From a virus: a stretch of DNA of 64,000 nucleotides. A program made the position numbers and the translations under genes. Shown here piece after piece: positions 1 to 34,500 of this stretch. How positions within the stretch are numbered: position 1 is the stretch's first letter; each line of letters begins with the position of its first letter. A model generated the notes under the pieces. That model was given only the letters and a program-made list of their open reading frames with translations. It searched no databases and was not told where the DNA came from. Location of the stretch: the IMG/VR virus record IMGVR_UViG_3300005826_000294, positions 62,001 through 126,000 of that record; one strand, given 5' to 3'.

Positions 1-206
1 ATAAGTTTTTTCATAAATTCTATATCTGAAGCATCTCCAATATAGAATTTATGATTTTTATTAAAATATATACGTTTTGTATCTTCTAATCGATTAATAT
101 TGTCGATACTAATTATCTCAAAATTTTTAGACCTATATACAATATAACGAATGAAATTCGCCATTAAAAACCCTGTAGATCCACATACTAAAATTTTTTT
201 TCTCAT
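1..206 (-). CDS. NAD-dependent sugar epimerase/dehydratase, N-terminal part
   Basis: Only the first 68 or so codons are in the window; the frame is still open at base 1. The ATG at 204-206 follows an AAGGAA ribosome site 9 bases upstream. Residues 5-14 (ILVCGSTGFL) form the glycine-rich Rossmann loop GxxGFL of the short-chain dehydrogenase/epimerase family that acts on nucleotide sugars, and SIDN at about 37-40 is the usual end of the second strand that binds the NAD ribose. It is the last visible gene of the glycan locus. The catalytic YxxxK is outside the window, so epimerase, dehydratase and reductase cannot be told apart. Confidence 0.7.
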   Translation of the reverse strand, partial: MRKKILVCGSTGFLMANFIRYIVYRSKNFEIISIDNINRLEDTKRIYFNKNHKFYIGDASDIEFMKKL

Positions 207-236
207 ATTAAAAAATTCCTTGGTTTTTTAGTACTT

Positions 237-3002: not shown

Positions 3003-3115
3003 TATGGTTTATCGCAAATACTATAAAGTTTTTTAACTTTAGCAAAACCTATAAGAAGTTTTTCACGCATAAAAAGCTCCTTATTTGCCAAGAATTTATT
3101 TTTTATTTTATTCAT
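3002..3115 (-). CDS. Small hypothetical protein, 37 aa
   Basis: This short frame fills the gap between two genes exactly. Its ATG (3113-3115) overlaps the upstream methyltransferase stop as ATGA, and its TAA overlaps the next ATG as TAATG. A second in-frame ATG at 3068-3070 has an excellent AAGGAG site 6 bases upstream, so a 22-residue product is also possible. The peptide is basic (about ten Lys/Arg in 37) and would form an amphipathic helix. No homologue is recognised. It could instead be a leader that keeps ribosomes moving between the flanking genes. Confidence 0.55.
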   Translation of the reverse strand: MNKIKNKFLANKELFMREKLLIGFAKVKKLYSICDKP

Positions 3116-3795
3116 TTTTTTATAACATATGCTGTTGGACAAACATAATCTAAAGATTTAACCAACACTCCTTTATTTTTAAAAAATTCATCAACACCAA
3201 TACTTTCTGACCACTTATGATAAGCATATTCATCAAATATTACAATACCACCTATAGAAACCCTATTCCAAAAAGATCTTAAAGCATAATATGTAGGATC
3301 ACAAAGATCAAAATCCATATAAAGTAAAGATATTTTAAATCCAGGGTTTTTTAAGATATATTCTGGAGCAGTATTTTTTATATCTCCTTTAATTAGTTCA
3401 AAATCTCTATCAACAAACCCAGCATTCAATATTTTCTCTCTAACATCATTTAATGAATGGGCATTATGTTTAATATTACGACTACTAAACAAATTTTTCA
3501 TTTCCTCTGCATCTCGACCACTTATTGTATTTAATAACTTATCTGTTTCAAAAAAATCAAAACCTATAACTCTTTTTATAGAATTTGAAAAAAAGATTTT
3601 TTTTAATTTAAGAAAAGTGACCATTCCAGAGCCTATAAAAACTCCACATTCTACAATATCTCCTGGTATTTGTTTTGTTTTATCAACAAAAAGAGATCTA
3701 GCAACTAATTTTCCTAATACTTTTGTTTCATCTGTGAAAATAAAATCATTAAAAGAATTGTATGTCTCTTTTAAAGTATTATCAAAAATATCCAT
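3112..3795 (-). CDS. TylF/MycF-type O-methyltransferase
   Basis: A class I SAM-dependent methyltransferase of 227 residues, close in layout to macrocin O-methyltransferase TylF. VECGVFIGSG (48-57) is the SAM-binding glycine loop. GFDFFE (78-83) is the strand ending in the acidic residue that binds the SAM ribose. LLYMDFDLCDPT (157-168) matches the TylF signature with metal-binding aspartates, and VIFDEY (185-190) supplies another metal ligand. Known members methylate sugar hydroxyls in a Mg-dependent way, which fits its place among sugar-nucleotide and glycosyltransferase genes. The sugar acceptor is not predictable. Confidence 0.85.
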   Translation of the reverse strand: MDIFDNTLKETYNSFNDFIFTDETKVLGKLVARSLFVDKTKQIPGDIVECGVFIGSGMVTFLKLKKIFFSNSIKRVIGFDFFETDKLLNTISGRDAEEMKNLFSSRNIKHNAHSLNDVREKILNAGFVDRDFELIKGDIKNTAPEYILKNPGFKISLLYMDFDLCDPTYYALRSFWNRVSIGGIVIFDEYAYHKWSESIGVDEFFKNKGVLVKSLDYVCPTAYVIKK

Positions 3796-3797
3796 AA

Positions 3798-5150
3798 TTA
3801 TTTTCCATATTTATTAATCCATTTCTGTAAAAGCAAAGATCCAAGAAGATAAGAATAAGCAACAGATAAAACATTACTTTTAACATATTCTGTAACAGAA
3901 AGCCATATAATAGAAAGAAGAAAATCAATTTTTCTACCATATGATTTTATATTCTCAACTTCAAAACCATTACTACTTATAGGTAATAAGCATCCTCTAT
4001 TTAATAAATGCCAATTAGTTTTAGAGTAATATATTTTTGCTATATCATAATCAGCATCACCATATAAAAGAGAATTACCAAATATTCCTCTAGGATCTAT
4101 TACATAAGGAATATTATTTTCCCATAAAACATTTGATGAAGTAAGATCTCCATGTATTGGAACAAAACGATTAGGAACCATCTCCTCTATATTAATCTTA
4201 TTTAGATTAATTAATGGATTTAAACATTCTGTTTTATTTACTATAAATTTCTCACCAAAATTAGTTAAAAAACTAATTTTATTTAATCTTGAAATTGTCT
4301 TATCAATATACATATATTTACAATCTTCTAAAGAACTTGGAATAGAAGGTTTAAATATATGTATAAGATTAGCAATATAATACAAAGGTTTAATTTTATA
4401 AAACTTCTTAACACCATTTATTTTTTTCATTGTTAAAGGGTTATATGAAATTATATTTGGTATAAAACAAAAACCATTCATATTTTTATACCAATTCTCT
4501 TCTGAATTACGTAATTTTATATTCTTACACTCTTTAATTACAATATTATCTTTAATTGTAATAGTATTAAATGATCTTATAGGGTTTTTACAAGAAATTA
4601 ATTTTTTATTATATTTTTTAGTATCTCCAATATCAATAGCAGGAATAACAACTTCTTCAAAATCTTTAATATTAATAGCATCTAATAATGTTATTTCTCT
4701 ATTTAAATTAGGTAAAACTTTTGGATAAGTAATTTCATTTTTATTCCAAAGAAAAACACCATAAATTCCACCATTTTTTCCATTAAATGAGCATAAAATA
4801 TTAGGACTACTAAAAAAAATATTTTTATTGGTTGTGGGTTTTTCTAAAGGTAAAACATCACACCAATTAAGAATAACTCTGTTATTTTTAGATCTTAACA
4901 ATCCTGATTGTACAGCATATCCAGATCCTTTTCTATTTTCAACAACATATATATATTTATTTTCAGTATATTGTTTAACAATATTTAATATATTATCTCT
5001 AACAACTATAATTACTTCATCAGCATTCCAAAATTCTATAATATGATTAATAATTGCTTTATTATATAAAGGTAATAATAACTTTGGATATATAAATTTC
5101 TTTAATCTTAAACCTAATCCAGCAGATGGAATTATAAGAGAAGTTTTCAT
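3798..5150 (-). CDS. Sugar nucleotidyltransferase fused to an APH/choline-kinase-like domain
   Basis: The 450 residues form two modules. Residues 1 to about 235 look like a nucleotidyltransferase: IIPSAGLGLRL (6-16) is a variant of the GxGxRL nucleotide loop, with YPKLLLPL (21-28) after it and WCDVLP near 96-101 at the metal-site position. Residues about 260-450 look like an aminoglycoside/choline kinase fold: IHGDLTSSN (342-350) is the catalytic HGDxxxxN loop and VIDPRG (360-365) is the metal-binding strand. The pair could phosphorylate a sugar or alcohol and then activate it with CTP or another NTP, as separate LicA and LicC do for choline. The substrate is unknown. The start overlaps the upstream gene by ATGA. 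Confidence 0.75.
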   Translation of the reverse strand: MKTSLIIPSAGLGLRLKKFIYPKLLLPLYNKAIINHIIEFWNADEVIIVVRDNILNIVKQYTENKYIYVVENRKGSGYAVQSGLLRSKNNRVILNWCDVLPLEKPTTNKNIFFSSPNILCSFNGKNGGIYGVFLWNKNEITYPKVLPNLNREITLLDAINIKDFEEVVIPAIDIGDTKKYNKKLISCKNPIRSFNTITIKDNIVIKECKNIKLRNSEENWYKNMNGFCFIPNIISYNPLTMKKINGVKKFYKIKPLYYIANLIHIFKPSIPSSLEDCKYMYIDKTISRLNKISFLTNFGEKFIVNKTECLNPLINLNKINIEEMVPNRFVPIHGDLTSSNVLWENNIPYVIDPRGIFGNSLLYGDADYDIAKIYYSKTNWHLLNRGCLLPISSNGFEVENIKSYGRKIDFLLSIIWLSVTEYVKSNVLSVAYSYLLGSLLLQKWINKYGK

Positions 5151-6082
5151 ATATTTTTTCCTATAGTTCCACCAGAATGGTTTAATAAATAATCTTCACG
5201 GTTACATCTATAACTATATGTAATTACTTTTAAAATTGAAAAATAAGTTTTTAAATATTCTTGTATTGTAATTTGTGGACTAAAACCAAGAAACGAATTT
5301 TCAATAATATTATCTATAACTAATATATTTTTAAAATAAGGAATAGCTTTAGCATTTGAATTAGAAGTTATTAAAAAGGTATTTAATTTATTAAACTTTT
5401 TATATAATGATTTCATCATATTTATTAATTCTTCAGTATCTCCAGATTTGGAAGAAGCAATAACAATATCATTTATATTAATTAGTCCTAAACTTCCATG
5501 AGAACTATGATTAGCATCTAAAGGAACAGCAACAATATTATAAGGAAGAAAAAATTCACTAACCAATTGAGCCAAAGAAAAATTCTTACCAACCCCAGTA
5601 ATTACTATTTTTCCAGAAATAGAATCTCTTATTTTTTTAGCAAAACTTAATATATTTTCTTTTCTTATCCAATTTAATATATGAGGAAAAACATTTTTTC
5701 CAGCTAATGTGGGCAATATAAAATCAGAATTATTTTTTGCTTGTGGTGTTGAATCATTTAAACAAAGATTTATTAAAGCATTAGGTTCATTAATTCCATC
5801 TCCAACATATACACAAGGCATATTTTCATCTATAAGTTTTTGTCTTTCTTCAACTTTACTAAAAATATAGTTAATTCCCATTTCTTTACATCTTATTTCA
5901 TTAATTTTAGATCCAGAAGATGTATTATCTGCAGAACATAATATTATTTCATTAAAATATTTCTTTAGAATAGGAATTGAAGGCCGATCATTACTACTAA
6001 AAGATTTTACTATTTTTCCATCAATTGAATAAAAATGCTCACCAGATGTTATTATTCCATCTATATCACAGATTAATTTCAT
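5147..6082 (-). CDS. KdsC-like phosphatase fused to KdsD/KpsF-like SIS isomerase
   Basis: From the TAATG-coupled ATG at 6080-6082 the protein has 311 residues. Residues 1-140 are a KdsC-type HAD phosphatase: DID at 6-8 holds the nucleophile and general acid/base, and VYVGDGINE (91-99) is the metal-binding loop. Residues 145-311 are an SIS domain like arabinose-5-phosphate isomerase KdsD: GVGKNFS (163-169), HSSHGSLG (192-199), SKSGDTEEL (211-219) and the terminal HSGGTIGK (302-309), matching HPGGALGR of KdsD. The C-terminal CBS pair of bacterial KdsD is absent. It likely makes and dephosphorylates a Kdo-like or other sugar phosphate. KdsA and KdsB partners are not in the window. Confidence 0.8.
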   Translation of the reverse strand: MKLICDIDGIITSGEHFYSIDGKIVKSFSSNDRPSIPILKKYFNEIILCSADNTSSGSKINEIRCKEMGINYIFSKVEERQKLIDENMPCVYVGDGINEPNALINLCLNDSTPQAKNNSDFILPTLAGKNVFPHILNWIRKENILSFAKKIRDSISGKIVITGVGKNFSLAQLVSEFFLPYNIVAVPLDANHSSHGSLGLININDIVIASSKSGDTEELINMMKSLYKKFNKLNTFLITSNSNAKAIPYFKNILVIDNIIENSFLGFSPQITIQEYLKTYFSILKVITYSYRCNREDYLLNHSGGTIGKNI

Positions 6083-7227
6083 TATTTTCTCCACTTAATG
6101 TTTGGAACTATAATAGAACTATCTATTTTACTTTTAAATGGAATTAGATCTTTAAACATACTTTTTAGTTCTTCTAACATATCAGATGTAGGTTTATAAC
6201 CTAAATTTAAAAGAATATTATGATCAACATTATACTCATGATCTTCCTTTTCAATTCTTGGATTTTCTATATTTGAGATTGTTGTTTCAATTCCAAATTC
6301 TTTTGCTACAATAGAAACATTTTTAGCAAGTTCAGATAGATCATAAATCTCTTCAAATTGATTAATAATCCTATATTTACCATTTTTTGGAGGATTATCA
6401 ATAATAATAGAAATACATTGTATTGAATCTCTTAAAGGAAGAAATCCTCTTTTTTGATGACCTTTTCCAAATAAAGTAATAGGAAATCCTTTAATAGCTT
6501 GAACAACAAAACGATTAATTGCAGTACCAAAAATACCATCATAATCAAATCTTGTTTTAAATTCACTAAATTCTATGTCACCTATATTAGTACCATAAAC
6601 AACACCCTGCATAATATCAGTACAAGTTATTCCCCAAATACGATTAGCAAAATCTATATTTATACTATCATGAACTTTTGTAGCATGATAGAAACTTCCA
6701 GGAAGTCTAGGAAACATCACCCTATCTTTTTTATTTTTATATTCTATCTCAAAGAAACCTTCTGCGATAGGAATATTAGGAGTTCCAAATTCGCCCATTG
6801 AACCAAGCTTAATTAAATGAATTTCTGGACAAACTTCATAAATAGCATAAAGAAGTGATAAATTGCCAATAACATTATTAAAATGAGTAAAAGAAGCATG
6901 CTTAAAATCAATCATAGAATATGGTGCAGATGGAATTTGACCTAAATTTACTATAACATCAGGCTTAAATTTTATTAAAGCAGATTTGAGAAAATTAAAA
7001 TTAGTCATATCAAATTTTAATATTTCTATTTCTCCAATAAATCTGCGAAAAACTTTTTGTCTTTTTGATATAGAAGATATTGGAATTAAAGAATTTCCTC
7101 CAAATTTTTTTACAAATTTTCTTCTGCTTAAATTATCTATTCCAAATATCTTATGTCCTTTACACCCTAAAAATTGAGCTAAAGGCCATCCTAAATATCC
7201 ATCAATTCCACAAATTAAAACTCTCAC
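6082..7227 (-). CDS. sqdB: UDP-sulfoquinovose synthase (SQD1/SqdB-like)
   Basis: This enzyme joins sulfite to UDP-glucose to make UDP-sulfoquinovose, using bound NAD. The 381-residue protein follows the plant SQD1 pattern closely: GIDGYLGW (7-14) binds NAD, NLSRR follows strand 2, SAPYSMID (100-107) is a family signature, GSMGEFGTPN (142-151) matches GTMGEYGTPN with Ser for the catalytic Thr, and Y180/K184 form YxxxK. I chose the GTG start at 7225-7227: it overlaps the upstream stop as GTGA and has GGGAG at the right distance, though an ATG four codons earlier exists. Sulfoquinovose would be a sulfonated sugar for the local transferases. Confidence 0.87.
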   Translation of the reverse strand: MRVLICGIDGYLGWPLAQFLGCKGHKIFGIDNLSRRKFVKKFGGNSLIPISSISKRQKVFRRFIGEIEILKFDMTNFNFLKSALIKFKPDVIVNLGQIPSAPYSMIDFKHASFTHFNNVIGNLSLLYAIYEVCPEIHLIKLGSMGEFGTPNIPIAEGFFEIEYKNKKDRVMFPRLPGSFYHATKVHDSINIDFANRIWGITCTDIMQGVVYGTNIGDIEFSEFKTRFDYDGIFGTAINRFVVQAIKGFPITLFGKGHQKRGFLPLRDSIQCISIIIDNPPKNGKYRIINQFEEIYDLSELAKNVSIVAKEFGIETTISNIENPRIEKEDHEYNVDHNILLNLGYKPTSDMLEELKSMFKDLIPFKSKIDSSIIVPNIKWRK

Positions 7228-7928
7228 AAATTCTCCCATCTATCTATTTTACAACTATGATAATTTACCTTATCTAAAGTTTCATATTCATCAGTTAATA
7301 TAATATTACATCCACACATTAAACCTAAATCAGCCATTCCACTAGCAGGAGTTATAAATACCTCGGAATTATTTAATACATTTATTTGATGATAAATATC
7401 ACGACAAAAATCAATATTTAAATTAAATCTTTCATTTTCTAAACCATGACCCATAATTTTTTTATTTGGAAATTTATATTTAAGCCATTTTATATGATCC
7501 CTGCCTGTTATATTTTTATTAGGTTGAATTTTACGATTTCGTGGAAAAATGGAAACAAATTTTTTTTCTTCAAATTGCTCACCATACATTAATTTTGGTT
7601 TAACTAAATTATATACTTTTCTAACATTATCATAAAAAAATCTATTATTTTTATCAAAATTAAAACAATGAGAAAATCCCATTTCTATAAATTTTTTATT
7701 TATATTATCATCTCTATAATGATTACAATCTCTAAGACTTTCATTAATATTATTAATAAATAATTCTACAGAGATCATATTAAATCTTCCAGGCCATAAT
7801 ATATGTAAAATTCTAACTAGTGAATCCCAAGTTAGAATTTCAAGAGGCTTGTTATATTGTTCTAAAAATGGAAATAATTGCCTAAATCCAAAACCATATT
7901 CCCCAATAAAATATAACTTATCTACCAT
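7224..7928 (-). CDS. Putative GT-B type glycosyltransferase, copy 2
   Basis: The 234-residue paralogue of the gene at 2298-3002, with the same length and conserved blocks: KLYFIGEYG near the start, VSIFPRNR at about 125-132, GHGLENERF near 160, and ITPASGMADLGLMCGCNIIL near 191-210. The last block resembles the nucleotide-sugar site of GT-B transferases. It follows a CgeB-like transferase, overlapping its TAG stop within ATGGTAG. In the other copy the order of the two gene types is reversed, so the pair was duplicated and rearranged. The function is inferred from these features and the context only. Confidence 0.6.
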   Translation of the reverse strand: MVDKLYFIGEYGFGFRQLFPFLEQYNKPLEILTWDSLVRILHILWPGRFNMISVELFINNINESLRDCNHYRDDNINKKFIEMGFSHCFNFDKNNRFFYDNVRKVYNLVKPKLMYGEQFEEKKFVSIFPRNRKIQPNKNITGRDHIKWLKYKFPNKKIMGHGLENERFNLNIDFCRDIYHQINVLNNSEVFITPASGMADLGLMCGCNIILTDEYETLDKVNYHSCKIDRWENL

Positions 7929-9319
7929 TCTTTAAAACCAAGACGAACAGATAATTCTCTTACTCTACAAAAATAACTATGGTTTTTATTTACTATTTTT
8001 GATCCTTGTTTTCCTATTTCCTCTCGTTTTTCATTATTGTTCAAATAATATTCAAGTAAATCATAACATTCTTTTTCATCTTTAAACCAAACAAGATCTT
8101 TACCATTTTCAAAATATTCTTCCATTCCAGGAATATACGAACTTAATGTTAATGTCCCACAGGCCATTGCTATTAATTGGCGTTTAGAAAAATATTTATA
8201 TACATTATTAAAATTATTAATACTTATAATTATTTTTGAAGCATTATAAACTTCATTTTGTTTTAAATATGAAATGTAATTACTTGGACGATCCCGCCAT
8301 TTTCCATATAATTTAAACCTATCTCCATATTTTATTTGAAGATGATTAATAACTTTTTTTCTAAGATTAGTCCCAGGAAAATTATGAGAAATATTATTAG
8401 CACAAAAAACAATATCATGTTTATATTTCTTATATAATTTATTTCTTATTTCATCAGGCATTCTATAAAAAGCATTAACATTAACCCCAACTTGCCAATA
8501 ATCAACATTTAAACTCCCAGCTTTTCTATACATTTCAAGTTGTCCCTCACTAGAAATAAGTGCTTTATGTATATGTTTTGATATATTAACAAAATAAGGA
8601 ACAGCATACTCTCTAATATCTATTGTATTATTTGTTATTATTGTATTAGGTAAATTTTCTCTAATCTGTAAAATAGTTGTTGGATCAACAGTTTTATCAA
8701 AAAATTGTAACTGCATATGTATCCAATCTGGTTTAAATAATAATGCCTCAGATTTTATAAAATTTTGGAGTTTTTCTTTTCCAAAACAATCCATATATTT
8801 ATTAAAACAAATAGCTTTTACACTGAATCCATTATCTACAAAAGCTTTAGTAAGAGCCATTTGATTTATCTCTTTTGTAGTATACCTTAAAAACAAAACT
8901 TTTAGAGATCCATTTTTATAATCTTCAATAAAACTATGTGATTTTATAGGTATTTTTGAATTATTAATTATTACTTTTCTTATAAAAACAGATCCTGTTC
9001 CCTCTTTTCCTCGCCAAATCCTTAATTTTATTGGAATATCTTTAGAAAAATCTTCAGTTATAATATTTACATCAAATTTTTTCCAATTATTTTCACACAC
9101 CAATTTTGAATGAGGAAAATCATAATATTTATTCCCATAAAAATTACAAAATATTACACCATTACCACCCTTACAATAAATTTCTAATGTTAATCTATAT
9201 ATAGTATTTGGAATAACATTAATGGGAAAATATAATAATGATGTATTATTTATCATTAAAACTTCTTTATTCTTTAATGAAAAAAGACGACCTTTCCACA
9301 TAGAGCTAGAAATTTCCAT
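7922..9319 (-). CDS. Glycosyltransferase with N-terminal beta-sandwich module and CgeB-like GT domain
   Basis: The 465 residues comprise two parts. Residues 1 to about 122 form a beta-rich module that recurs almost unchanged at the start of the protein encoded at 29847-31358; shared blocks include LLYFPINVIPN, YDFPHSKLVCE and LRIWRGKEGTGS. It resembles carbohydrate-binding beta-sandwiches. Residues about 135-465 are a GT-B enzyme of the CgeB/Glyco_trans_1_2 type, with DIVFCANN in the second half and a RQLIAMACGTLTLSS donor-site helix before the IPGMEEYF loop. The module may hold the growing glycan or a glycosylated protein. It ends with TAG and heads a gene pair with 7224-7928. Confidence 0.75.
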   Translation of the reverse strand: MEISSSMWKGRLFSLKNKEVLMINNTSLLYFPINVIPNTIYRLTLEIYCKGGNGVIFCNFYGNKYYDFPHSKLVCENNWKKFDVNIITEDFSKDIPIKLRIWRGKEGTGSVFIRKVIINNSKIPIKSHSFIEDYKNGSLKVLFLRYTTKEINQMALTKAFVDNGFSVKAICFNKYMDCFGKEKLQNFIKSEALLFKPDWIHMQLQFFDKTVDPTTILQIRENLPNTIITNNTIDIREYAVPYFVNISKHIHKALISSEGQLEMYRKAGSLNVDYWQVGVNVNAFYRMPDEIRNKLYKKYKHDIVFCANNISHNFPGTNLRKKVINHLQIKYGDRFKLYGKWRDRPSNYISYLKQNEVYNASKIIISINNFNNVYKYFSKRQLIAMACGTLTLSSYIPGMEEYFENGKDLVWFKDEKECYDLLEYYLNNNEKREEIGKQGSKIVNKNHSYFCRVRELSVRLGFKEW

Positions 9320-22628: not shown

Positions 22629-22629
22629 A

Positions 22630-24614: not shown

Positions 24615-25015
24615 TTTAACCTTTCTAAATAATTATAAATATTTCTAATATAATCACTTTCTAAGTATTTTTCAGATGCTAAAACTAAACAGATATCATC
24701 TGGACCTAAATTTAAAATATCTACCCAAATCATTTTTGGAATAAATAATCCCACATTAGGTTCATTCATAGAATATAAAATAGAGTTTTCTCCATCAAAT
24801 AATTTTACAACAAAAGAACCAGAAATAGATATAATAAATTGTTCAGTATTTATATGAGCGTGACCACCTCTAATAGTATTTGGTGGATGATTAAACATAT
24901 AAAAAATACGTTTAATATTAAATGGAATTAATTCATTTTCTTCAACAAAAACTAATTTTCCACGATTATCACAAAAAGAAGATAAATTTACTAATTTACA
25001 ATTATTTATTTTCAT
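24611..25015 (-). CDS. fdtA: dTDP-4-keto-6-deoxyglucose 3,4-ketoisomerase (FdtA/QdtA-like)
   Basis: The 134-residue cupin has the FdtA/QdtA/WxcM features: RGKLVFVEE (18-26), IKRIFYM (34-40), RGGHAH (49-54) with the catalytic histidines, and QFIISISGSF after it. These enzymes move the keto group from C4 to C3 before amination. The order of action with RmlA, RmlB and the aminotransferase gives dTDP-3-amino-3,6-dideoxyhexose. FdtA (galacto product) and QdtA (gluco product) cannot be separated here by eye. It overlaps the exostosin-like gene by 14 bases. Confidence 0.88.
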   Translation of the reverse strand: MKINNCKLVNLSSFCDNRGKLVFVEENELIPFNIKRIFYMFNHPPNTIRGGHAHINTEQFIISISGSFVVKLFDGENSILYSMNEPNVGLFIPKMIWVDILNLGPDDICLVLASEKYLESDYIRNIYNYLERLK

Positions 25016-25931
25016 TATTTAACTTTTCATTTAATATATAAGCAATTAATTCAGGTTGCTTATCTCTATTTAACCATTTATACCACATTTCTCTTCCATA
25101 TTTTCCCATTTCAATAATTTTTTCATCAGAATTGTTTTCTAAAAATGTTTTAATTAAATTTCCAGCATTTTTTGCCTGTTCTGCATCAAATCTTAAAGTG
25201 CATTTATCCCAATCAATTTTATTTTGAAATGGAAGATGATATCCAGTACAAAATAATGCTGGAACCCTTGCTGAAGACATTGCTTCATAAAATCTATATG
25301 GAAATACTCCCGGAATTGATTGTGGAGCTAATAATATTTTTGAATCTTGTTGACTTTTTAAAAAACTAACTCTTCTTCTTTTTTGCTCTTCTTTATCTGA
25401 TAGTAAACCATAAAAATCGCTAAATGTTTTATGATTAAATCTATTTCCTAATATGTTTTTACAAGAATTTACAGAATCTTTTCTTGTATTTGTAGAAAGC
25501 CATCCTTGAAAAGATGTATCATATTTAAAACCATCATTTGGAATAGAAGTATAATTTCCCAAATCTTCTACAGGCCAAAACCAAGGAATTGTGTTTTTAT
25601 CTTTTAACATAAAGTCTCGAACATTACATCTTATTAACAAAGCAGATGTTCCACCAAGATTTACTTCAAAATCACTACAATCAAAAAAAACATGTTTATA
25701 TTCATAATCTTTCCAATATGGTAATTCTTCTACTTCTCTTTTAAGTGATTTATCTATTCTTAATGTTTGATCTTTTGACCTAATTCTATGCAATGCTATA
25801 GGACAAATAATATAATCTGCTTCATTTGGATTATTTACATTTATTATATAATTAGCTTTTGGTTCCCACGGTCTTTCTTTAAATGGTGGAAAATTTTTTA
25901 TTTCTAATTTACTATATGTATATATTTTCAT
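25002..25931 (-). CDS. Exostosin-like glycosyltransferase
   Basis: The 309 residues show a GT47 exostosin-like pattern. After an N-terminal part with ADYIICPIA (38-46) and a HVFFDCSDF segment (80-88), the C-terminal half has FKYDTSFQGWLSTNTR near 135-150 and the signature FPYRFYEAMSSARVPALF (210-227), with the conserved Glu and a following pocket with LPF and D. Exostosin domains transfer uronic acid or other sugars in eukaryotic and some bacterial glycans. An AAGGAA site precedes the ATG. The donor is unknown. Confidence 0.78.
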   Translation of the reverse strand: MKIYTYSKLEIKNFPPFKERPWEPKANYIINVNNPNEADYIICPIALHRIRSKDQTLRIDKSLKREVEELPYWKDYEYKHVFFDCSDFEVNLGGTSALLIRCNVRDFMLKDKNTIPWFWPVEDLGNYTSIPNDGFKYDTSFQGWLSTNTRKDSVNSCKNILGNRFNHKTFSDFYGLLSDKEEQKRRRVSFLKSQQDSKILLAPQSIPGVFPYRFYEAMSSARVPALFCTGYHLPFQNKIDWDKCTLRFDAEQAKNAGNLIKTFLENNSDEKIIEMGKYGREMWYKWLNRDKQPELIAYILNEKLNNENK

Positions 25932-26716: not shown

Positions 26717-27604
26717 TTATATACACTCCTTTAATTCATTTTTTATTCTTTGTTCTAGTTTCAATCTTACTTTTTCTATTGATTCAGGATGTTTTCCGTT
26801 AAATTTTTTTGTATAAGCATCTCCTCTTCGTTGAGCAATCCATTCTTGAACGCCCTTTGTTGGTTTTTCTATTTTTAGCTTTTCTTCTTCAGTTTTTGCC
26901 TTTATCCATGGAATATATAAATTATCCCAATAGTTTGGTATAATTCCTCTTGGATCTCGTTGATAATAATATTCCATTTTTGCTTTTATTTGTTTAGGAA
27001 ATACATGAGAATAATGATAAATTCTAATTCTCCAACTATCTGTTGTATTAAAATCTATATGTCCCATTTCTTTACAGGTTTTTCCCGTTGGTGGCCAAAG
27101 CATTGTAGGAGGTCTATGTGTTACCCATTTTGATTTTCCAGGAATAATACGTTGGATTCTATGAACTTCAAAATTTTCTTCAAATCCAGAAATATATCTA
27201 TCAAAGCCACCATAAAAAGATTTTAACTTAAATGCCATAGAATAACAATTACTATTATCATTAAGATATTTAACTACTTTTTCCATATCAAATTGAGTAT
27301 AAATTTCATCAGAGTCGACATGCCAAACAAAATCTCCAACAAAATATGGAGATTGAATATCACACATATGATCTTTTCCATTCCAAGTACCTTGAATCAA
27401 TTGTATTTTATTCTTTGGATCAGGAAAATTTTTTATTATATCAATGGTCTTATCAGTTGAACATGAAAATCCTAATTTTTGATAATGTTTAACAGGACCT
27501 TCTGTAATAATTATTTTTTCAGCAAATGGATAAATAGATTCTAAATTTTCTTTTAAAACATAATCTCCATTAAAAACTATCATAGTAAACGTAATTTTTT
27601 TCAT
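26717..27604 (-). CDS. Glycosyltransferase, GT2-like
   Basis: The 295-residue protein begins ITFTMIVFNGDYVLKENL (4-21), the pattern of GT2-like enzymes of the WaaE type. IIITEGP (31-37) follows as the nucleotide strand, and VWHVDSDEIY (93-102) is the metal-binding DxD. Later there are HRIQRIIPG and HYSHV segments that could be near the acceptor. It lies between a methyltransferase and a sulfotransferase and overlaps its upstream neighbour by four bases. Donor and acceptor are unknown. Confidence 0.75.
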   Translation of the reverse strand: MKKITFTMIVFNGDYVLKENLESIYPFAEKIIITEGPVKHYQKLGFSCSTDKTIDIIKNFPDPKNKIQLIQGTWNGKDHMCDIQSPYFVGDFVWHVDSDEIYTQFDMEKVVKYLNDNSNCYSMAFKLKSFYGGFDRYISGFEENFEVHRIQRIIPGKSKWVTHRPPTMLWPPTGKTCKEMGHIDFNTTDSWRIRIYHYSHVFPKQIKAKMEYYYQRDPRGIIPNYWDNLYIPWIKAKTEEEKLKIEKPTKGVQEWIAQRRGDAYTKKFNGKHPESIEKVRLKLEQRIKNELKECI

Positions 27605-28260
27605 ATATTTCTCCTAAAAATAAATGTTCCCATTTTATATGTTTTATCATGCCAAATATCTTCTTTTTTTAATTCAAATCCTTCTTTTTTTAATATTTTA
27701 TTTAAATCATCTCTTCCAATATAAAATCTAATATCAGGTATTTTATTATATGTTTTTACTTGTTCAATTTTTGTTTTATCATCTGTAATAAATAATCTAT
27801 GAGATATAAACCATTTATTTGCACTTTTAAGCATATTTTTAAATGCCTTTTCCCAATTATGAATAAGTTCTAATACTGCAGATTCCATAACAATATCATA
27901 TTTTTTAATAGCGTTTATATCACATATATTTTTTATATAAAATTTACCATTTGTAAAATTTTTTTTAGCAATATTACACATATTTTTAGAAATATCATAT
28001 CCAATATATTCTAAAGGCGGAATTAATCCCTTTTTTTGTAAATAAATAGCATGCCAGCCCGCTCCACAGCCAACATCTAATAAGGTTTTATTATTTTTAT
28101 CATTTTTTATTATCCATTCAAAAGCTTCATATAATTTAAAAAATGCTTCATATTTTTCAAAGTCACCAGAATCAAAATAAGATTTATTTAATTCATTATG
28201 AGCATCAGCTATTTCTTTTAAAGTCCAATCAGCTGAAATTATATTTTCAGGAACTTTCAT
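27601..28260 (-). CDS. Class I SAM-dependent methyltransferase
   Basis: A 219-residue enzyme with LLDVGCGAGWHAIYL (60-74) as the SAM loop and YIGYDIS (87-93) ending in the ribose-binding Asp. DIVMESAVLELIHNW (126-140) is the strand-4 region with helices that shape the substrate pocket. It resembles small methyltransferases of polysaccharide loci, probably acting on a sugar or lipid-linked sugar. Its start overlaps the end of an HNH protein gene by 14 bases. Confidence 0.83.
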   Translation of the reverse strand: MKVPENIISADWTLKEIADAHNELNKSYFDSGDFEKYEAFFKLYEAFEWIIKNDKNNKTLLDVGCGAGWHAIYLQKKGLIPPLEYIGYDISKNMCNIAKKNFTNGKFYIKNICDINAIKKYDIVMESAVLELIHNWEKAFKNMLKSANKWFISHRLFITDDKTKIEQVKTYNKIPDIRFYIGRDDLNKILKKEGFELKKEDIWHDKTYKMGTFIFRRNI

Positions 28261-29014
28261 AATAGTTCTCCATTATATCATTTATATGTTTAATCCATTT
28301 TTCAAATTCTAACGTTCCTTTTCCACTATTACATATTTTACAACATGAAACTAAATTATTTTCTATATATCCTTTTGAATTATCAATTCTATCTAAATTT
28401 ATAACATTTGTAATAGTTCCACAATAAAAACAAGGTTTTCCTAAAAATGATTTAAATTCTTCAAATGATATTAAAAATTCAAAATTTCTTCTTGAAGCAC
28501 TATAAATATAATTTTTAAATTGTCTATTTAATCCATAATTATATTTATGTTTATAATTATATTCAATTTTTCTTAAAGTTTTATATCTGATAAAATTTTT
28601 AAGTTGACATATATAATCATTCCAATCTTTAATTGTTTGATTATTTTTTAACTTATTACAAATAATACAACAAGAAACTACGTTATTATAATAATATCCA
28701 AGATTATTATCTATCCTGTCTAAACTAATTGTTTCTATCTCATTACTACAATAAAAACATGGTTTATTCCAAAATGTTTTAAACTCTTTAAATGATATTG
28801 AAAAAATAATATTTCTTTCTTTCGCTTTTGTTTTATATTTACTAAATTTACCATTTATAGTTTTAGAATATAATTTTGCTTTTTTATTATTTTTTTCTTT
28901 ATTTTTGTAATAATGTAATCTACTTGCTTCTCTTCCACAATCTTTACACCAAGAACTTTTTGGATAAAAATTACAACTATTTTTTTCTAATTTACATTTA
29001 CTACATTTTTTCAT
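28247..29014 (-). CDS. HNH endonuclease with two tandem HNH domains
   Basis: The 255-residue protein starts with a zinc-ribbon (C4, C7, C23, C26). Two HNH-like units follow: 86-120 (CFYC, LDRIDNNLGYY, NNVVSCCIICN) and 195-229 (CFYC, LDRIDNSKGYI, NNLVSCCKICN). Each is preceded by a similar helix (ERNIIFSISFKEFK; RRNFEFLISFEEFK). Such domains are typical of free-standing phage homing endonucleases; having both in one chain is less usual and implies internal duplication. It lies between two glycan genes and overlaps both, so it was accommodated without breaking the operon. Confidence 0.83.
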   Translation of the reverse strand: MKKCSKCKLEKNSCNFYPKSSWCKDCGREASRLHYYKNKEKNNKKAKLYSKTINGKFSKYKTKAKERNIIFSISFKEFKTFWNKPCFYCSNEIETISLDRIDNNLGYYYNNVVSCCIICNKLKNNQTIKDWNDYICQLKNFIRYKTLRKIEYNYKHKYNYGLNRQFKNYIYSASRRNFEFLISFEEFKSFLGKPCFYCGTITNVINLDRIDNSKGYIENNLVSCCKICNSGKGTLEFEKWIKHINDIMENYYESS

Positions 29015-29847
29015 AATTTTCCAGATATAGATAATTTCATTAATTCAAAATAAGGGTCATATATTATTTTTTTATCACTTTGAGTATGTTTCCATCCAGT
29101 TGGATAATAAGAATTTTCTAATATTCGAAACTCATGGTAATGATAACAAATAAGATTATATTTATCATTTACTATTAATTTATTATTTTCTTTTGTAATT
29201 TTATATTTGGCAATATTCCATGGTCCCATATTTATACCAGGATGTGGACAAGAAAGATGATTTTGAAATTTATTAGGAGTATCATATAAAATATTTAAAT
29301 ATCCCTGATCTGCACACATTCCATTTGGTAATGTTTCCCATTTACACCATTCTAAACATCGTTCTTTCCACCATAAAAGAAATTCTTTACAATAATTATC
29401 ATTTCGATATCCTAATATCCCAACATTAAATCTAACACCAGATCTTGGTGGTTCAAATCCATGGTCTACAACCATCAAAGAGTAATCCCCCATAACTTGT
29501 TCTATTTCATTTGGATCAGACCAAAAAGCAATGTCGGCATCAGTATAATATAATGTATTTATATAGCTAAAATTATTAAAGATATATAAAGGTAATATTG
29601 GAGATATAGTTGCATAATATTCTTTTAATAATCTTGTATGTTTAATAGTAACAAGTTCTGGAAATTGATTTTCTAAATCTTTTAATTTAATTAGTATTAC
29701 ATTATTTAATTTAGAAGAAATATTATAAACATTATCATCTAAACATAATATAAATAATATACTATTTTTATCTTGTTTATGAAGAGTATAATTACAAACC
29801 AAACCTTTATTAAAATAATTAGAATCAAAATATGTACAAAAATACAT
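29011..29847 (-). CDS. GT8-like glycosyltransferase, copy 1
   Basis: The 278-residue protein has the layout of a retaining GT-A enzyme. FCTYFDSNYF (3-12) opens it, ILFILCLDD (30-38) follows, and LYYTDADIAFW (99-109) contains the DxD metal motif as in GT8. FNVGILGYRN near 138-148 and the tryptophan-rich WWKERCLEWCKWE segment are shared with the gene at 40872-41735, as are GINMGPWNIAKYK and ICYHYHEFR. It probably uses a UDP sugar. The relative of this gene lies inside the tail-fibre cluster. Confidence 0.8.
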   Translation of the reverse strand: MYFCTYFDSNYFNKGLVCNYTLHKQDKNSILFILCLDDNVYNISSKLNNVILIKLKDLENQFPELVTIKHTRLLKEYYATISPILPLYIFNNFSYINTLYYTDADIAFWSDPNEIEQVMGDYSLMVVDHGFEPPRSGVRFNVGILGYRNDNYCKEFLLWWKERCLEWCKWETLPNGMCADQGYLNILYDTPNKFQNHLSCPHPGINMGPWNIAKYKITKENNKLIVNDKYNLICYHYHEFRILENSYYPTGWKHTQSDKKIIYDPYFELMKLSISGKL

Positions 29848-31358
29848 TAGAACGTCTCCACTTTTATTATTGCATTTTCAGAACCCCAATCTATATGTTC
29901 ATTTGCTACTGGATTTTTATATTTTATCCATTCATGTAAAAAATTAGTATTTATAGTTCTTAATCTTTTCCACTCTCTTTTATCATATCTAAAAGAATGT
30001 AAATCATTTTTATCATTTCTTGTATGATCTTGATGAATTCCAACTATTCTATGTTCTCTAATAAGTGGAACTCCAGAAAAAGACATTCGTAAAGCAAAAT
30101 CATCATCTTCACCAGTTATTCCCTTCATAAATTTTTCATCAACTCCATTTATAGCAAGAATATGTTCTTTACGAACTGCAATATAATACCACCACCATCC
30201 AAAAGTTACTGAAGGATCTGCTTTTGCTCCGGGAATTTCTAAAATATTATCAAAATCCATATATTTTATATTTATTTTTTTCACTTCATTAACAAATTTT
30301 TCTGATGATCTAAAAACATCACCGTAAACACAATATCCTTTATTTGCCATTTCCCATGATATTTTTAAATTATCTTCTTTTATAAGAGTTTCTGGCCCAG
30401 TTATAACAGTTACAGATCCTCGACTATGTTTTAATCCAATATTATTACTTAATGCTGGCACAAATGATGCTGGTTTAATTGCTCCTTTTTGATTATCAAT
30501 TAATATATATTTAAATTGTAATCTATATTCTCTTGAAAATTGTTTACATAAACCTAAAATATTATCTTTACTTTTATCATCAATAATAACTATTTCAAAT
30601 TCTTTTTTTGGTAAAGTTTGTTTTATATATGTTTCAAGAGTTCTTCTAAAAAATCCAATTCTATTATAAATTGAAATAAGAATAGAAACTTTTATACCAT
30701 CTTCTCCAATAACTACTGGTAAAATTTTAGGAGGAGGAGTTGCTACATCAATTCTTGTTGGTAATGTAACAGGTTTATTTTTCTTTCGTTTCGGTACTTT
30801 TATTTCTTCTTTTGCTTGTTTAGCTCTTTCTTTTTTTTCTATTTTAGGGTTTTTTACCATTTTTTGAGCAGGGCGCTGAGGAGGTTGCTTATATTCTGCA
30901 GGATTTGGGGATTTGGGACCAAATCCATCAATAGAAATAACTTTTCCTATTGTGTTAATATTATCTACAGGACCCTCTTCAAGTTGAACAATTATCTTAC
31001 GTACTAAAATACTACCACTTCCTTCACTACCTCTCCATATCCTAAAAACCATAGGAACAGTTTTAGGAAAATCTTTTGTTATTACATCAACATCAAATGT
31101 TGTCCAATTTCCATTTTCACATAAAATTTTTGAATGATGAAAATCATAATTTCTGTTTCCATATAAATTACAATATATTATTCCATTTCCACTTTCTCTG
31201 CATAGTTCTAATGTAACTTTATAAACAGCATTTGGTAAAATATTTACGGGAATATATAACAGTGATTTAGGACCAACCATAGCTGTGTATTTTCGTCCAT
31301 TAGAGTCTTTTCTACTGTTAATTGAACGTCCTCGCCAAGATGGTTGAAATATTTCCAT
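29847..31358 (-). CDS. GT2 glycosyltransferase with N-terminal beta-sandwich module and Pro/Lys linker
   Basis: The 503 residues make three regions. Residues 1-126 are the same beta-rich module as in the protein of 7922-9319 (LLYIPVNILPN, YDFHHSKILCE, FRIWRGSEGSGS). Residues about 127-220 are a flexible linker rich in Pro and Lys. Residues 222-503 are a GT2 domain with KVSILISIYN (223-232), VIIDDKSKD (257-265) and a GEDDDFALRM catalytic loop, related to the gene at 13812-14639. The module probably positions a glycan or a protein acceptor. A GGGAG site precedes the ATG by about 11 bases. Confidence 0.83.
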   Translation of the reverse strand: MEIFQPSWRGRSINSRKDSNGRKYTAMVGPKSLLYIPVNILPNAVYKVTLELCRESGNGIIYCNLYGNRNYDFHHSKILCENGNWTTFDVDVITKDFPKTVPMVFRIWRGSEGSGSILVRKIIVQLEEGPVDNINTIGKVISIDGFGPKSPNPAEYKQPPQRPAQKMVKNPKIEKKERAKQAKEEIKVPKRKKNKPVTLPTRIDVATPPPKILPVVIGEDGIKVSILISIYNRIGFFRRTLETYIKQTLPKKEFEIVIIDDKSKDNILGLCKQFSREYRLQFKYILIDNQKGAIKPASFVPALSNNIGLKHSRGSVTVITGPETLIKEDNLKISWEMANKGYCVYGDVFRSSEKFVNEVKKINIKYMDFDNILEIPGAKADPSVTFGWWWYYIAVRKEHILAINGVDEKFMKGITGEDDDFALRMSFSGVPLIREHRIVGIHQDHTRNDKNDLHSFRYDKREWKRLRTINTNFLHEWIKYKNPVANEHIDWGSENAIIKVETF

Positions 31359-31366: not shown

Positions 31367-33604
31367 TTACTCCCTATTTTTAAATAATAAATTATATAAA
31401 TGATTAATATTGAAATTATTTGCTTTTTCTCTTGCCGCACGAGATACTGTTCGACAATTAAAAGAACATTTTTCTAATAATTTCCTATTGTTCTTGAATT
31501 TTTGAATTTCTCGAATAAATAAAGCAGGATTGTTTGAATTCCAAACCAAACTACCAGTAATTCCATCAAATACTATCTCCGAAATGGCTCCTACATCTGA
31601 AGCAATAACTGGAACTCCAGCCATCATTGCTTCCAAAATAACAAGAGGCATTCCCTCCATGGTTGAAGGAAGAATTAATAAATCAAAAGTAGCATAAAAC
31701 TCTTCAACATTGTCTTTTGATCCAATAAAACACACATTGTTTAATTGCTTCGCCATTTGTTCTAAAGGTTTTCTTTGAGGCCCGTCTCCAACAATTACAA
31801 AAGAAGCATCTGGAATTACTTTAGCACAATATAATATAATAGGAATATTCTTTTCAGGAGATAATCTTCCAACAAAACCTATAGTAAAATTTTCATTTAA
31901 TTTTTTCTCAACATTAAATCTTTCCCAATCAATTTGTTGAGGAAGAACAGCAACATTCTTATTACCATCTTTTAATAACTTTCTCCCCATCTTATTTGAA
32001 ACAGCCGTTATTAATGTAACATGTTCTCCGCGAGATGAAACTTTATTCATAGAATCATTCCAACTTAATTCGCTATGAACTGTTTCTACAATTCTACGCC
32101 TAAAACCTTGCTTCCATGCTTCTTGAATAACTCTATATACTCCAAAACTATTATAAAAATGAATTATACTATAATTTTCAGCTTCAATAAGGCATTTTAA
32201 TGCTTTATCTCTTCCCGAAGATGATAAATCCTCTATAATAACTCCCATATCTTTCAAAGATTGTTTAAACTTTTCTTCAGTTCCAGATATTAAAGCTACA
32301 TGAGGTTCATAAATTGATTTATTTAATTGAGAAATTGCTTGCTTAATCCATATCTCACCACCACCAACCATTTTATATGGAATAATATATAAAACTTTTC
32401 TTTTTATAGAAAGTTTTTTTGGAATAGGAAGATCTAAAATCATTTGAGCAGCATTTTCCCAAGAGAATTTTTTAACAATCTCTCTGGCTGGATTTTTAAT
32501 CCTCTTCAACTCCTTATCAAGATTTTTATAAGAATGATATAATAATTCTTTAAAATTTTCAATACTAGGATCTCCTACAACAGCACCTTTCATAACTCCC
32601 CAATACTGCATAGAATTTGGAGCTTCCATTTCTCCTGTATCAACCAATAAAGAATTATCATCATTTAAGAAATCTAATTGTCCTCCGTGTCTTGGAGCTA
32701 TAACCAATTTTTCGCAAGCTAAGGCCTCAAGAAGAGGTAAGCAAAAACCTTCCGTAGCACTCATACTAATAACTACATCACAAGCAGTATATAATGCTCC
32801 CATACTTGGAATAAATGTATTTACAACTTCAATCTCAGGAGGATTTTTCTTTCCTTTAAGATTATTTTCAATAATGGATTTTACATCAACTTCAAAAGGC
32901 TTAGTTTTATCAGGAGTTATAAATTGGGTTTTTAAAACTAAACAAACATCATCTTTGCTTGTGAATGTCTCAATATAACCTTTGATTACCCTTTCATGGA
33001 GTTTTCTATGGTGAGGAATAGCATTATGAAGGAATTTTACTTTTTTGTTTGTTTTTAATTTAAAAGGAGTAATATTGGGATTGAAAATAGTTTGATCAAC
33101 ACCATGAGGGACAATTAACATCTTATTTTTAGGAACACCATTATTAGCAAAAATATCATATGAAAATTGGCTTGAAGGAAGAATATAATCTATTGCCCTG
33201 CTATAATACTGCCATCCAGGAGGTAATACCGAACTCTCAAAGTTCCATATGGCCGCTTTACATTTGGACTCAGGAAAGAAACGCCTTGGATATTGATAAA
33301 ATATTGTATATGCTAATTCTAAATCATAAGGTCTGTTTTTGTCTTCAATTTCGGGTTTAGGTTGTTCTTTTGTAACAATAATCTCATTACCTTGCCCATC
33401 AACATATTCCGTGGGACCTTGAACCAAATGCCCATGATAACCAGAAAGTAAAATATCTTTTAAATCTTCAGGAAAATATTCTAATCCATTTGTGGATTTA
33501 AAATATATTTCATGTTCGGTTTTCTTCATTGCTCTGGCCAATGCTTGAGCTGTATAACTCCACGAATGGTTAGTTGCTCCCATTGTATGCCATCTTACTT
33601 TCAT
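31367..33604 (-). CDS. Tandem GT4 glycosyltransferase (two GT-B domains)
   Basis: The 745-residue chain holds two retaining GT4 enzymes. The first (1 to about 395) has the donor motif EGFCLPLLE (285-293), with LIVPHGVDQTIFNP at 163-176. The second (about 402-745) has YKMVGGGEIW (410-419), GFVGRLSPEKNI (576-587) and EGMPLVILE (650-658). Each EX7E-type pair is intact. It could add two sugars in a row, as other double GT4 proteins do. The ribosome site AGGAG lies within the end of the homing endonuclease gene, and the starts overlap by ATGA. Confidence 0.87.
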   Translation of the reverse strand: MKVRWHTMGATNHSWSYTAQALARAMKKTEHEIYFKSTNGLEYFPEDLKDILLSGYHGHLVQGPTEYVDGQGNEIIVTKEQPKPEIEDKNRPYDLELAYTIFYQYPRRFFPESKCKAAIWNFESSVLPPGWQYYSRAIDYILPSSQFSYDIFANNGVPKNKMLIVPHGVDQTIFNPNITPFKLKTNKKVKFLHNAIPHHRKLHERVIKGYIETFTSKDDVCLVLKTQFITPDKTKPFEVDVKSIIENNLKGKKNPPEIEVVNTFIPSMGALYTACDVVISMSATEGFCLPLLEALACEKLVIAPRHGGQLDFLNDDNSLLVDTGEMEAPNSMQYWGVMKGAVVGDPSIENFKELLYHSYKNLDKELKRIKNPAREIVKKFSWENAAQMILDLPIPKKLSIKRKVLYIIPYKMVGGGEIWIKQAISQLNKSIYEPHVALISGTEEKFKQSLKDMGVIIEDLSSSGRDKALKCLIEAENYSIIHFYNSFGVYRVIQEAWKQGFRRRIVETVHSELSWNDSMNKVSSRGEHVTLITAVSNKMGRKLLKDGNKNVAVLPQQIDWERFNVEKKLNENFTIGFVGRLSPEKNIPIILYCAKVIPDASFVIVGDGPQRKPLEQMAKQLNNVCFIGSKDNVEEFYATFDLLILPSTMEGMPLVILEAMMAGVPVIASDVGAISEIVFDGITGSLVWNSNNPALFIREIQKFKNNRKLLEKCSFNCRTVSRAAREKANNFNINHLYNLLFKNRE

Positions 33605-34500
33605 TTATTTCTCCTTATATCACACATTCTTAATTTCTTATCAATTGTAATTTTAGCACAACCGAATTTTTCTGCTATTTGTTTTCTTGTTAGTTTTTGA
33701 ATAATATATAAATTATATAGAGTTTCTTTGGAAATATCTATTTTATAATTTATTTTTCCAATGGGATTAAGATCCCATTTATATGATAAAGATTTAAAAG
33801 GAGGCTTGCCGATATATTCTAATAATAAAGGAACAGAGGTTTTAGGAATAAATATCCTATAATCTTTCTTATAATTCATAACAGATGATTTTATTTGTAT
33901 TTCTTTGTTTAACTTATAAGAAAGAAAATTTATTTCATTATAACTAAAACAATCAGTACAGAAAATAGCATATTCTTTATTAGGAAGAGAACCATCTCCT
34001 AAATACCAATGAAGAACAAGATTTGGGGAAATTTTTAAATCAGGAATTATCTTCTTTCTATTTATATACCACTTTTTTTCTAACTCTTCAAACTGTATAG
34101 AACAATGCGTTGAAAATATATATCTTGTATACCATTTGTTCCAGTTCTTATGATAATATCTTTCTTTTTGAATACTATTATTAACTAATGGTATATTGCT
34201 ATCCTTAAAAAAATTAGAAAGCCATACAGCATAATCTTCCTTGCAACTAGAAAAACAAAACTTAGCTTGATGTGTTCTTTTAGTTAAAGATCCATCTCCC
34301 AATAATTCTCCCTCTATTCTTTGTATTATCTCTTTATTAAGAGGATAATTATTTTGTTTTGCTAATCTCAAACCCTCTCCAGATGTCCTTAACTTCGTAT
34401 TCTTTAACAAAATTTTTCTAGTTTTTGATGGAGAAATTCCAACTTTCTTTGCTATTTGACGAATAGAGAATCCTTTCTTATAAAACTCTACAATTCTCAT
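33601..34500 (-). CDS. LAGLIDADG homing endonuclease, free-standing
   Basis: The 299-residue protein starts with a helix-turn-helix (FSIRQIAKKVGISPSKTRKIL, roughly 11-31). It has two LAGLIDADG motifs, RIEGELLGDGSL (61-72) and LVLHWYLGDGSL (161-172), both with the catalytic Asp. A second helix-turn-helix (LTRKQIAEKFG) is near the C-terminus. It is of the monomeric two-motif type. A small ribbon-helix-helix gene overlaps its start by ATGA and could control it. It sits between the fibre genes and the glycan locus. Confidence 0.87.
   Translation of the reverse strand: MRIVEFYKKGFSIRQIAKKVGISPSKTRKILLKNTKLRTSGEGLRLAKQNNYPLNKEIIQRIEGELLGDGSLTKRTHQAKFCFSSCKEDYAVWLSNFFKDSNIPLVNNSIQKERYYHKNWNKWYTRYIFSTHCSIQFEELEKKWYINRKKIIPDLKISPNLVLHWYLGDGSLPNKEYAIFCTDCFSYNEINFLSYKLNKEIQIKSSVMNYKKDYRIFIPKTSVPLLLEYIGKPPFKSLSYKWDLNPIGKINYKIDISKETLYNLYIIQKLTRKQIAEKFGCAKITIDKKLRMCDIRRNK

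Follow-up and report, generated by a model that had tools for sequence, protein, structure and literature searches.

In this study, a 64,000-nucleotide stretch of viral DNA (hereafter the window), which comprises bases 62,001-126,000 of the 301,683-base IMG/VR record IMGVR_UViG_3300005826_000294, was investigated for a large locus of glycan synthesis and transfer genes lying beside the tail genes of a phage. We observed that, by a wide margin, no tripeptide is as over-represented in the structural proteins as Asp-Gly-Tyr (DGY), with 63 occurrences against 5.7 expected in 26,615 amino acids (aa). On balance, we incline to the reading that soluble phage glycosyltransferases (GTs) glycosylate virion proteins and that DGY serves as a tyrosine O-glycosylation sequon. 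The broader proposal, that sequon-guided tyrosine O-glycosylation is clade-wide, with DGY being read by a phage-specific GT4/GT2 module and with some members elaborating the glycan through exchangeable cassettes, is one on which we are almost evenly divided, doubt slightly prevailing.

The preference for DGY is narrow. When six phages were pooled, 458 DGY motifs were counted (6.9-fold) and DAY reached 2.5-fold, whereas DGF (1.08), NGY (1.02) and EGY (0.74) stayed close to or below background, and DGW was also not favoured. Across 68 distinct loci, retrieved from the 135 relatives in a broad alignment of the tail protein p948, 788 DGY motifs were found against 51.7 expected in 246,648 aa, with DAY, DGF and NGY near background; since these loci are related and partly redundant, such fold-enrichment figures are not independent counts, and the number of p948 alignment columns carrying the motif is the measure least affected. 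In the 62 distinct p948 orthologues, DGY occupies 51 alignment columns, which places it ahead of all the 2,656 tripeptides matched to it in composition, whose median is 6; 61 of the 62 contain the motif, with a median of five, and those lacking it at a given column show unrelated residues there. Tandem repeats such as DGYDGYDGY were also noticed. The codons used for DGY differ between the AT-rich genome G000 and the GC-rich genome G001 and follow genome GC content, suggesting selection at the peptide level and ruling out a DNA-level cause such as a repeat or an endonuclease target.

The motif is also confined to outer tail proteins, among them the tail sheath, p948, a 2303-aa tail protein and spikes, which are unrelated to each other. 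All five sheath orthologues examined carry two to three DGY, while none of the ten tail-tube orthologues carries any. The counts are zero or at chance level in hub-like, tape-measure-like, terminase and enzyme genes, and amount to 8 against 14.5 expected in proteins downstream of p948 and to 2 against 4.3 in 32,445 aa of non-structural proteins. Comparatively, the tail regions of 54 cyanophage-type loci gave a ratio of 0.88 and those of T4-type phages 1.6, and two pieces of huge phages, LR756501 and LR756508, held 3 against 3.6 and 1 against 2.8 expected, respectively; on these controls, DGY as a general property of tail proteins was ruled out. The exact specificity for Asp, Gly and an aromatic residue with a hydroxyl group, the selection on the peptide, the restriction to the outer virion and the rapid positional turnover together argue that DGY is a modification sequon.

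The glycan locus spans record positions 61,376-96,500, that is, window positions 1-34,500 plus one SDR gene continuing past the left edge, which extends the borders originally drawn. This part of the window is densely coding, with about 32.9 kb on the minus strand, where about 35 genes (open reading frames (ORFs) were called mechanically) mostly overlap their neighbours by a few bases. The genes of the locus and of the adjoining tail operon are as follows.

1-206 (record 61,376-62,206), minus strand: SDR epimerase, 5' part, conserved core at the far end of the locus; homologues in the relatives G001, G017, G018 and G019.
237-1019, minus: GT2, conserved core (PF00535, E 5e-25); orthologues at 48-56% in G001, G017 and G019.
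1354-2328, minus: GT4-like glycosyltransferase (PF13524, E 1.7e-20).
3112-3795, minus: TylF-type O-methyltransferase (PF05711, E 3.7e-14).
3798-5150, minus: sugar nucleotidyltransferase-like domain fused with a kinase (APH)-like one; Pfam matches weak, below cut-off.
5147-6094, minus: HAD phosphatase (KdsC-like) fused with SIS phosphosugar isomerase (KpsF-like), by profile matches.
6082-7239, minus: UDP-sulfoquinovose synthase homologue (SQD1 family).
7922-9319, minus: carbohydrate-binding-like domain plus GT4-like transferase (PF13524, E 2e-23); N-terminal domain shared with 29847-31358.
10689-12878, minus: GDP-mannose 4,6-dehydratase with an intein (11,313-12,506).
12878-13795, minus: GDP-L-fucose synthase-like reductase, WcaG type (PF01370, E 1.7e-48; NF047922, E 1e-78, below cut-off).
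13812-14639, minus: GT2 (PF00535, E 1.8e-5); orthologues in G001, G017 and G019.
14646-15575, minus: GSCFA-family protein (PF08885, E 3.7e-40).
15846-16562, minus: radical SAM/SPASM protein (PF13186, E 6e-10).
16524-17918, plus: two unassigned genes, weakly sulfotransferase-like, which interrupt the operon.
19076-20446, minus: HAD phosphatase/sugar nucleotidyltransferase fusion (PF13419, E 3e-28); G017 orthologue 72% identical.
21891-25015, minus: dTDP-3-amino-sugar cassette, with RmlA at 21891, RmlB at 22630 (above the TIGR01181 cut-off), a DegT/FdtB-type aminotransferase at 23547 and FdtA ketoisomerase at 24611 (PF05523, E 2e-41).
25002-25931, minus: exostosin/GT47-like glycosyltransferase (PF03016, E 8e-10); G017 orthologue 75% identical.
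26717-27604, minus: GT2 (PF00535, E 7.5e-6).
27601-28260, minus: SAM methyltransferase (PF13489, E 5e-14); orthologues in G001 and G017.
29011-29847, minus: predicted GT8-fold glycosyltransferase (glycogenin/LgtC-like, by AlphaFold and Foldseek), with a conserved DxD motif.
29847-31358, minus: carbohydrate-binding-like domain plus GT2 (PF00535, E 2e-11); relatives in all five expanded loci.
31367-33604, minus: double GT4 (Pfam, E 4.6e-47), the N-terminal half being the clade-wide core GT4.
33601-34500, minus: free-standing LAGLIDADG homing endonuclease (PF03161, E 6e-23), a mobile passenger between fibre and glycan genes.
37735-39747, minus: fibre protein with six DGY motifs, by motif count.
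40872-41735, minus: second predicted GT8-fold transferase, within the tail operon, identified by alignment; overlaps a structural gene and lies at the same place in G001 and G016.
43495-46341, minus: p948 tail protein with five DGY; it adjoins the GT4 in the clade, whereas other fibre genes intervene in the window.
46353-53264, minus: tail protein of 2303 aa with six DGY, by motif count.
53267-56503, minus: baseplate wedge protein with one DGY (phrog_6, E 4e-40).

The original prediction, made from the letters of the window, described a phage-borne glycan locus of some 13 glycosyltransferases in one operon continuing from the tail genes. As an observation it was partly confirmed. The GTs, nucleotide-sugar enzymes and methyltransferases were matched by Pfam and NCBIfam profiles, and the locus does adjoin the tail genes, with baseplate genes upstream on the same strand. 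The 13 glycosyltransferases should be taken as an upper bound, as nine proteins, with ten GT domains between them, are supported by profile or fold (starting at 237, 1354, 7922, 13812, 25002, 26717, 29011, 29847 and 31367, the last with two domains), and the four genes at 2298, 7224, 18339 and 21207 are candidates only; the GT8-like gene at 40872-41735 lies beyond the range first described. A single unbroken operon was not recovered, because the two plus-strand genes interrupt it and because a 265-bp gap (34,501-34,765) and the homing endonuclease stand between it and the fibre genes. Sulfation was likewise overstated: the sulfotransferase matches are weak (E 0.05-0.08), those at 17217 and 25959 were rejected as not significant, and the firm sulfur enzyme is the UDP-sulfoquinovose synthase homologue. 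A scan for promoters gave promoter-like sites no commoner than chance.

Comparison with other phage genomes, as had been suggested, revealed the same locus and flanks in four further phage records, confirming that it belongs to the phage. Together with the window phage, these make five uncultivated jumbo phages with an expanded locus and genome GC contents of 0.30-0.56: G001 (340 kb, GC 0.56, locus about 22 kb), G017 (316 kb, GC 0.32, about 31 kb), G018 (a 134-kb contig of a partial genome, GC 0.53, about 13 kb) and G019 (318 kb, about 15 kb). The site is identical in all five, with the p948/fibre genes on one side and, on the other, a tubulin/FtsZ-like gene, after which the same replication genes follow. 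These expanded versions range from 13 to 35 kb and their sugar cassettes are variable, while all or almost all of them share the double GT4, the carbohydrate-binding-like plus GT2 protein, the dehydratase, the reductase, one GT2 and the SDR. The tubulin/FtsZ-family gene, which always adjoins the glycan locus in the sub-clade (record 59,793-61,193 and L052:13452-14885; PF00091, E 6e-14; 60-68% identity across the sub-clade), could encode a PhuZ-like spindle protein. Again, the G017 locus harbors genes for a NeuB-like synthase, a CMP-sugar synthetase-like protein and a GT29-like sialyltransferase (L052:1709-3231, equal to G017 record 105,709-107,231, and L052:951-1712), which on their sequences are predicted to form a nonulosonic-acid branch in this phage.

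Beyond these five phages, a small core of GT4, GT2 and usually SDR was found at the equivalent place in about 60 further huge-phage contigs. The GT4 follows p948 in all 63 loci having at least 3 kb downstream, the GT2 in 58 and the SDR in 48 of them, and proteins related at 34-39% to the N-terminal half of the double GT4 are encoded by huge phages of up to 480 kb. An AlphaFold model of this core GT4 family (pLDDT 94) predicts a GT-B/GT4 fold with a family-4 C-terminal domain, and chlorovirus B736L (PDB 3oy2) is among the nearest solved GT4 structures. Searches of phage records for the core GT4 returned nothing but one 22% match, and among 84,980 prokaryote genomes it was detected in one, on a 383-kb contig (L213) of a Chitinophagales metagenome-assembled genome (MAG). 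As this contig carries p948, GT4, both GT2 and SDR, it is most likely a misbinned phage, and it gives a weak hint of a Bacteroidota host. A formamidopyrimidine-DNA glycosylase-like gene (with an MPEGPEV start) was also noticed within the minimal GT module (L137:8279-9115) and at the same place in many loci of the clade.

With regard to export of the glycan, neither a transmembrane transferase nor a transporter was found, membrane segments being assessed by hydropathy alone. The lipid-carrier transferase and flippase families PF02397, PF13440 and PF00953 are absent from four of the phages, while as a control they were detected in 9, 14 and 12 of 14 control genomes, respectively. Because the sequon-like DGY, a soluble GT module as constant neighbour and the lack of membrane-assembly genes coincide, we consider virion glycosylation to be the best reading. 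The original prediction had offered decoration of the virion or a change of the host surface; the former is the better of the two, and the interpretation was to that extent partly supported.

We propose that the locus would make activated sugars in the host cytoplasm, namely a dTDP-3-amino-3,6-dideoxyhexose, a sugar of GDP-fucose type derived from the GDP-mannose of the host and probably a sugar of sulfoquinovose type. Late in infection, soluble phage GTs would use them to assemble an oligosaccharide straight onto the outer tail proteins of the phage itself. The acceptor would be the tyrosine of Asp-Gly-Tyr, and in the window's sub-clade also that of Asp-Ala-Tyr, the glycan presumably being bound to the tyrosine oxygen, and the phages may have spread DGY over their sheath, baseplate and fibre proteins. 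The minimal core of GT4, two GT2 and one SDR would go back to the ancestor of a large huge-phage clade, and the window phage and its nearest relatives may have enlarged it with exchangeable sugar cassettes, so that the glycan would vary from phage to phage. The benefit would presumably be shielding of the tail or tuning of adhesion.

The core GT4, being universal in the clade, is the best candidate for the enzyme forming the first bond. The two transferases at 29011-29847 and 40872-41735 are also attractive for this step, since glycogenin, a tyrosine O-glucosyltransferase, was matched and one of them is encoded within the tail operon. They gave no Pfam match, and their profile gave no sequence match in the PDB; the AlphaFold model of the first (pLDDT 82, pTM 0.86) predicts a GT-A fold of family GT8 with the DxD motif, and a Foldseek search with it returned glycogenin as best match (E 1.9e-8) and LgtC at a TM-score of 0.62.

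Several observations weigh against virion glycosylation at DGY. The GT8-fold enzymes are absent from the G018 contig and did not turn up in the minimal modules, which eliminates them as a universal first transferase, and LgtC, which has no tyrosine activity, is equally close to them in fold. DAY is enriched in the window's sub-clade only and not in the wider clade, and it was rejected as an equal sequon for this reason. The T4-type tail regions show the mild DGY excess given above, T4 itself having 10 against 2.7 expected. Locus L168 (of the same sequence as L196) possesses GT4 and both GT2, yet its p948 has no DGY and its upstream tail proteins hold just 2 against 0.9 expected, which may mean that the sequon has switched in this phage or may count against a connection between the GTs and DGY. 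That connection rests on shared ancestry and position rather than on independent gains and losses, because all clade members with enough sequence have GT4 and no member without it was found. The glycan itself is here deduced from genes.

Some of these observations would suit the strongest alternative, in which DGY has nothing to do with the GTs and is a structural or binding motif, such as a turn docking a virion protein or a receptor sugar, or a site at which tyrosine is modified in another way, for example by sulfation, whether or not the GTs act on the virion. DGY does occur mainly in beta-rich fibre-like proteins, T4 shows its mild excess and L168 retains its GTs without the motif. A turn motif should, however, tolerate NGY, DGF and DGW, all of which are at background, and the turnover of DGY over 51 columns of p948 and its presence in unrelated proteins, also in tandem, are not what such a motif would lead one to expect; we therefore regard this alternative as rather unlikely, though deserving of serious attention. 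Less probable again is that the locus remodels the host surface (O-antigen or capsule), thereby excluding rival phages or grazers. The clusters of P-SSM2 type, which hold similar enzymes, have been read in this manner (PMC7824862, PMC9602691), the sugar cassettes are complete, and host flippases and lipid-carrier enzymes could be borrowed, leaving this explanation a small share of probability. The missing lipid-carrier transferase, flippase and membrane protein in four phages, the constant position in the tail module and the DGY pattern, which cyanophage-type tail regions lack, all speak against it.

Phage GTs glycosylate DNA in other phages, and the GTs of the window might similarly modify hypermodified bases as protection from nucleases, the more so as a thymidylate-synthase-like gene, identified from its sequence, lies outside the locus at record 23,060-23,869. 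This is very improbable, since the locus adjoins tail and not replication genes, its amino-sugar, sulfosugar and methylation enzymes exceed the known needs of DNA glucosylation, and the DGY pattern would be left unexplained. An assembly error that fused a phage contig with a polysaccharide cluster from a bacterium, to which the fall of GC to 0.23-0.29 in the locus from about 0.31 in the tail genes might point, can practically be dismissed, as orthologous loci with the same two flanks occur in the four other phage records.

The claim of a near-complete pathway holds for the dTDP-3-amino-sugar steps and for the conversion of GDP-mannose to a GDP-fucose-type sugar; the window locus has no recognisable gene of ManB/ManC type, so that GDP-mannose itself would have to come from the host. 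The dTDP-3-amino-3,6-dideoxyhexose route consists of RmlA, RmlB, the DegT aminotransferase and FdtA, and an obvious acetyltransferase was not seen. The SQD1 homologue shows whole-length homology to Arabidopsis SQD1 (E 1e-106) and keeps the YxxxK motif, while its catalytic-motif Thr is replaced by Ser and it falls under the curated equivalog cut-off (NCBIfam NF041015, 501.7 bits vs 575); among the five expanded-locus phages it is found in the window phage only. The intein of the GDP-mannose 4,6-dehydratase, 398 aa long (S...HN, then T), is inserted within the catalytic HAS/TSEMFG motif, and its splice junctions are present (Ser1, block-B TxxH, terminal HN, +1 Thr), leaving the spliced product intact and 66% identical over 323 aa to the G001 enzyme; the orthologues of G001, G017, G018 and G019 are all intein-free. 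The intein and the three homing-endonuclease-like genes in or at the locus (9383-10699, 28247-29014 and 33601-34500) are passengers.

Homing-endonuclease-like genes (treble-clef DUF4379/HNH and LAGLIDADG) invade this genome heavily, some within structural and glycan blocks and others at many further record loci, such as L009, L010 and L011. A fibre-like ORF at 34766-37732 (988 aa) has a GC content of 0.51 against 0.26-0.34 in its surroundings, carries no DGY and had no match among 50,697 phage records; it is probably a recently acquired adhesin. The record has a contractile-tail layout, with baseplate wedge genes at window 53-57 kb and the tail sheath at record 137,065-139,611. Its terminase shows at most about 25% identity to any of the 50,697 phage records, which indicates an uncultivated lineage, and its IMG/VR relatives are at 64-88% identity. 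The 'moraphages' described in PMC12619734, where core GTs are also mentioned, offer a lead on its membership, set against their typing by PolB and the DnaE-like gene read from the present record. The record also has eight or nine tRNA genes scattered over 9 kb (L004:4636-13695), of which four are for tRNA-Lys(ttt), and PADLOC gave zero matches among the six proteins submitted.

With reference to known systems, the nearest in gene content are the lipopolysaccharide (LPS)/capsule-type clusters of the jumbo cyanophages P-SSM2 and S-SCSM1, read as host-surface modifiers (PMC7824862, PMC9602691). Like our locus, they belong to large myovirus-like phages and combine many GTs with nucleotide-sugar epimerases and dehydratases (GMD, fucose synthase, RmlB). 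Those clusters have 13-15 genes, whereas about 35 are present here, fixed beside tail genes clade-wide, with no membrane step and with DGY-rich virion proteins, and cyanophage-type tail regions have no DGY excess. In mycobacteriophages, virion glycosylation (Freeman et al. 2023, cited in PMC12619734) is reported in PMC12619734 to place glycans at the C-termini of capsid and tail-tube subunits; phage-encoded GTs, here proposed to modify virion proteins, are common to both, while our phages have a tube without the motif, a short sequon proposed to lie internally in sheath, baseplate and fibre proteins, and sugars of their own making. The absence of DGY from the tail tube speaks against the mycobacteriophage pattern described there only if DGY is the site.

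By analogy, the two GT8-fold enzymes resemble glycogenin in predicted fold and in the tyrosine acceptor proposed, unlike it in having no sequence-level match and in their targets, which would be other proteins, where glycogenin glucosylates a tyrosine of its own. The autonomous glycosylation of chloroviruses is similar in that a virus carries its own soluble GTs, B736L being structurally near the core GT4. Chloroviruses are, however, eukaryotic algal viruses with another acceptor chemistry, and to our knowledge no DGY motif is known from them. For UDP-sulfoquinovose synthase, a viral homologue is on record from a contig of Mu-like type (PMC7785012). Sugar clusters of jumbo phages, mycobacteriophage virion glycosylation and viral UDP-sulfoquinovose synthase are thus already known, and the sequon is possibly a new principle. 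In the literature searched, there was no report of a phage glycosylation sequon or a 'DGY motif', and none of the papers listed there on tyrosine O-glycosylation concerned phage virions by title.

Sugar-synthesis genes of phages are usually filed as 'LPS modification' with the acceptor unstated, and here the sequence points to an acceptor. DGY and the core GT4 can be used together as a marker, given the rarity of this GT4 in cultured phage records and in prokaryote genomes, where its one occurrence is on a phage-like contig. If the reading is true, it would provide a candidate sequon for phage-made protein glycosylation, explain the long glycan islands of huge phages and give a target for mass spectrometry of virions. 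Glycan-coated tails would bear on host range, adhesion and shielding, and perhaps on the rarity with which these phages are isolated. It is probable that these phages cover their tails in glycans of their own design.

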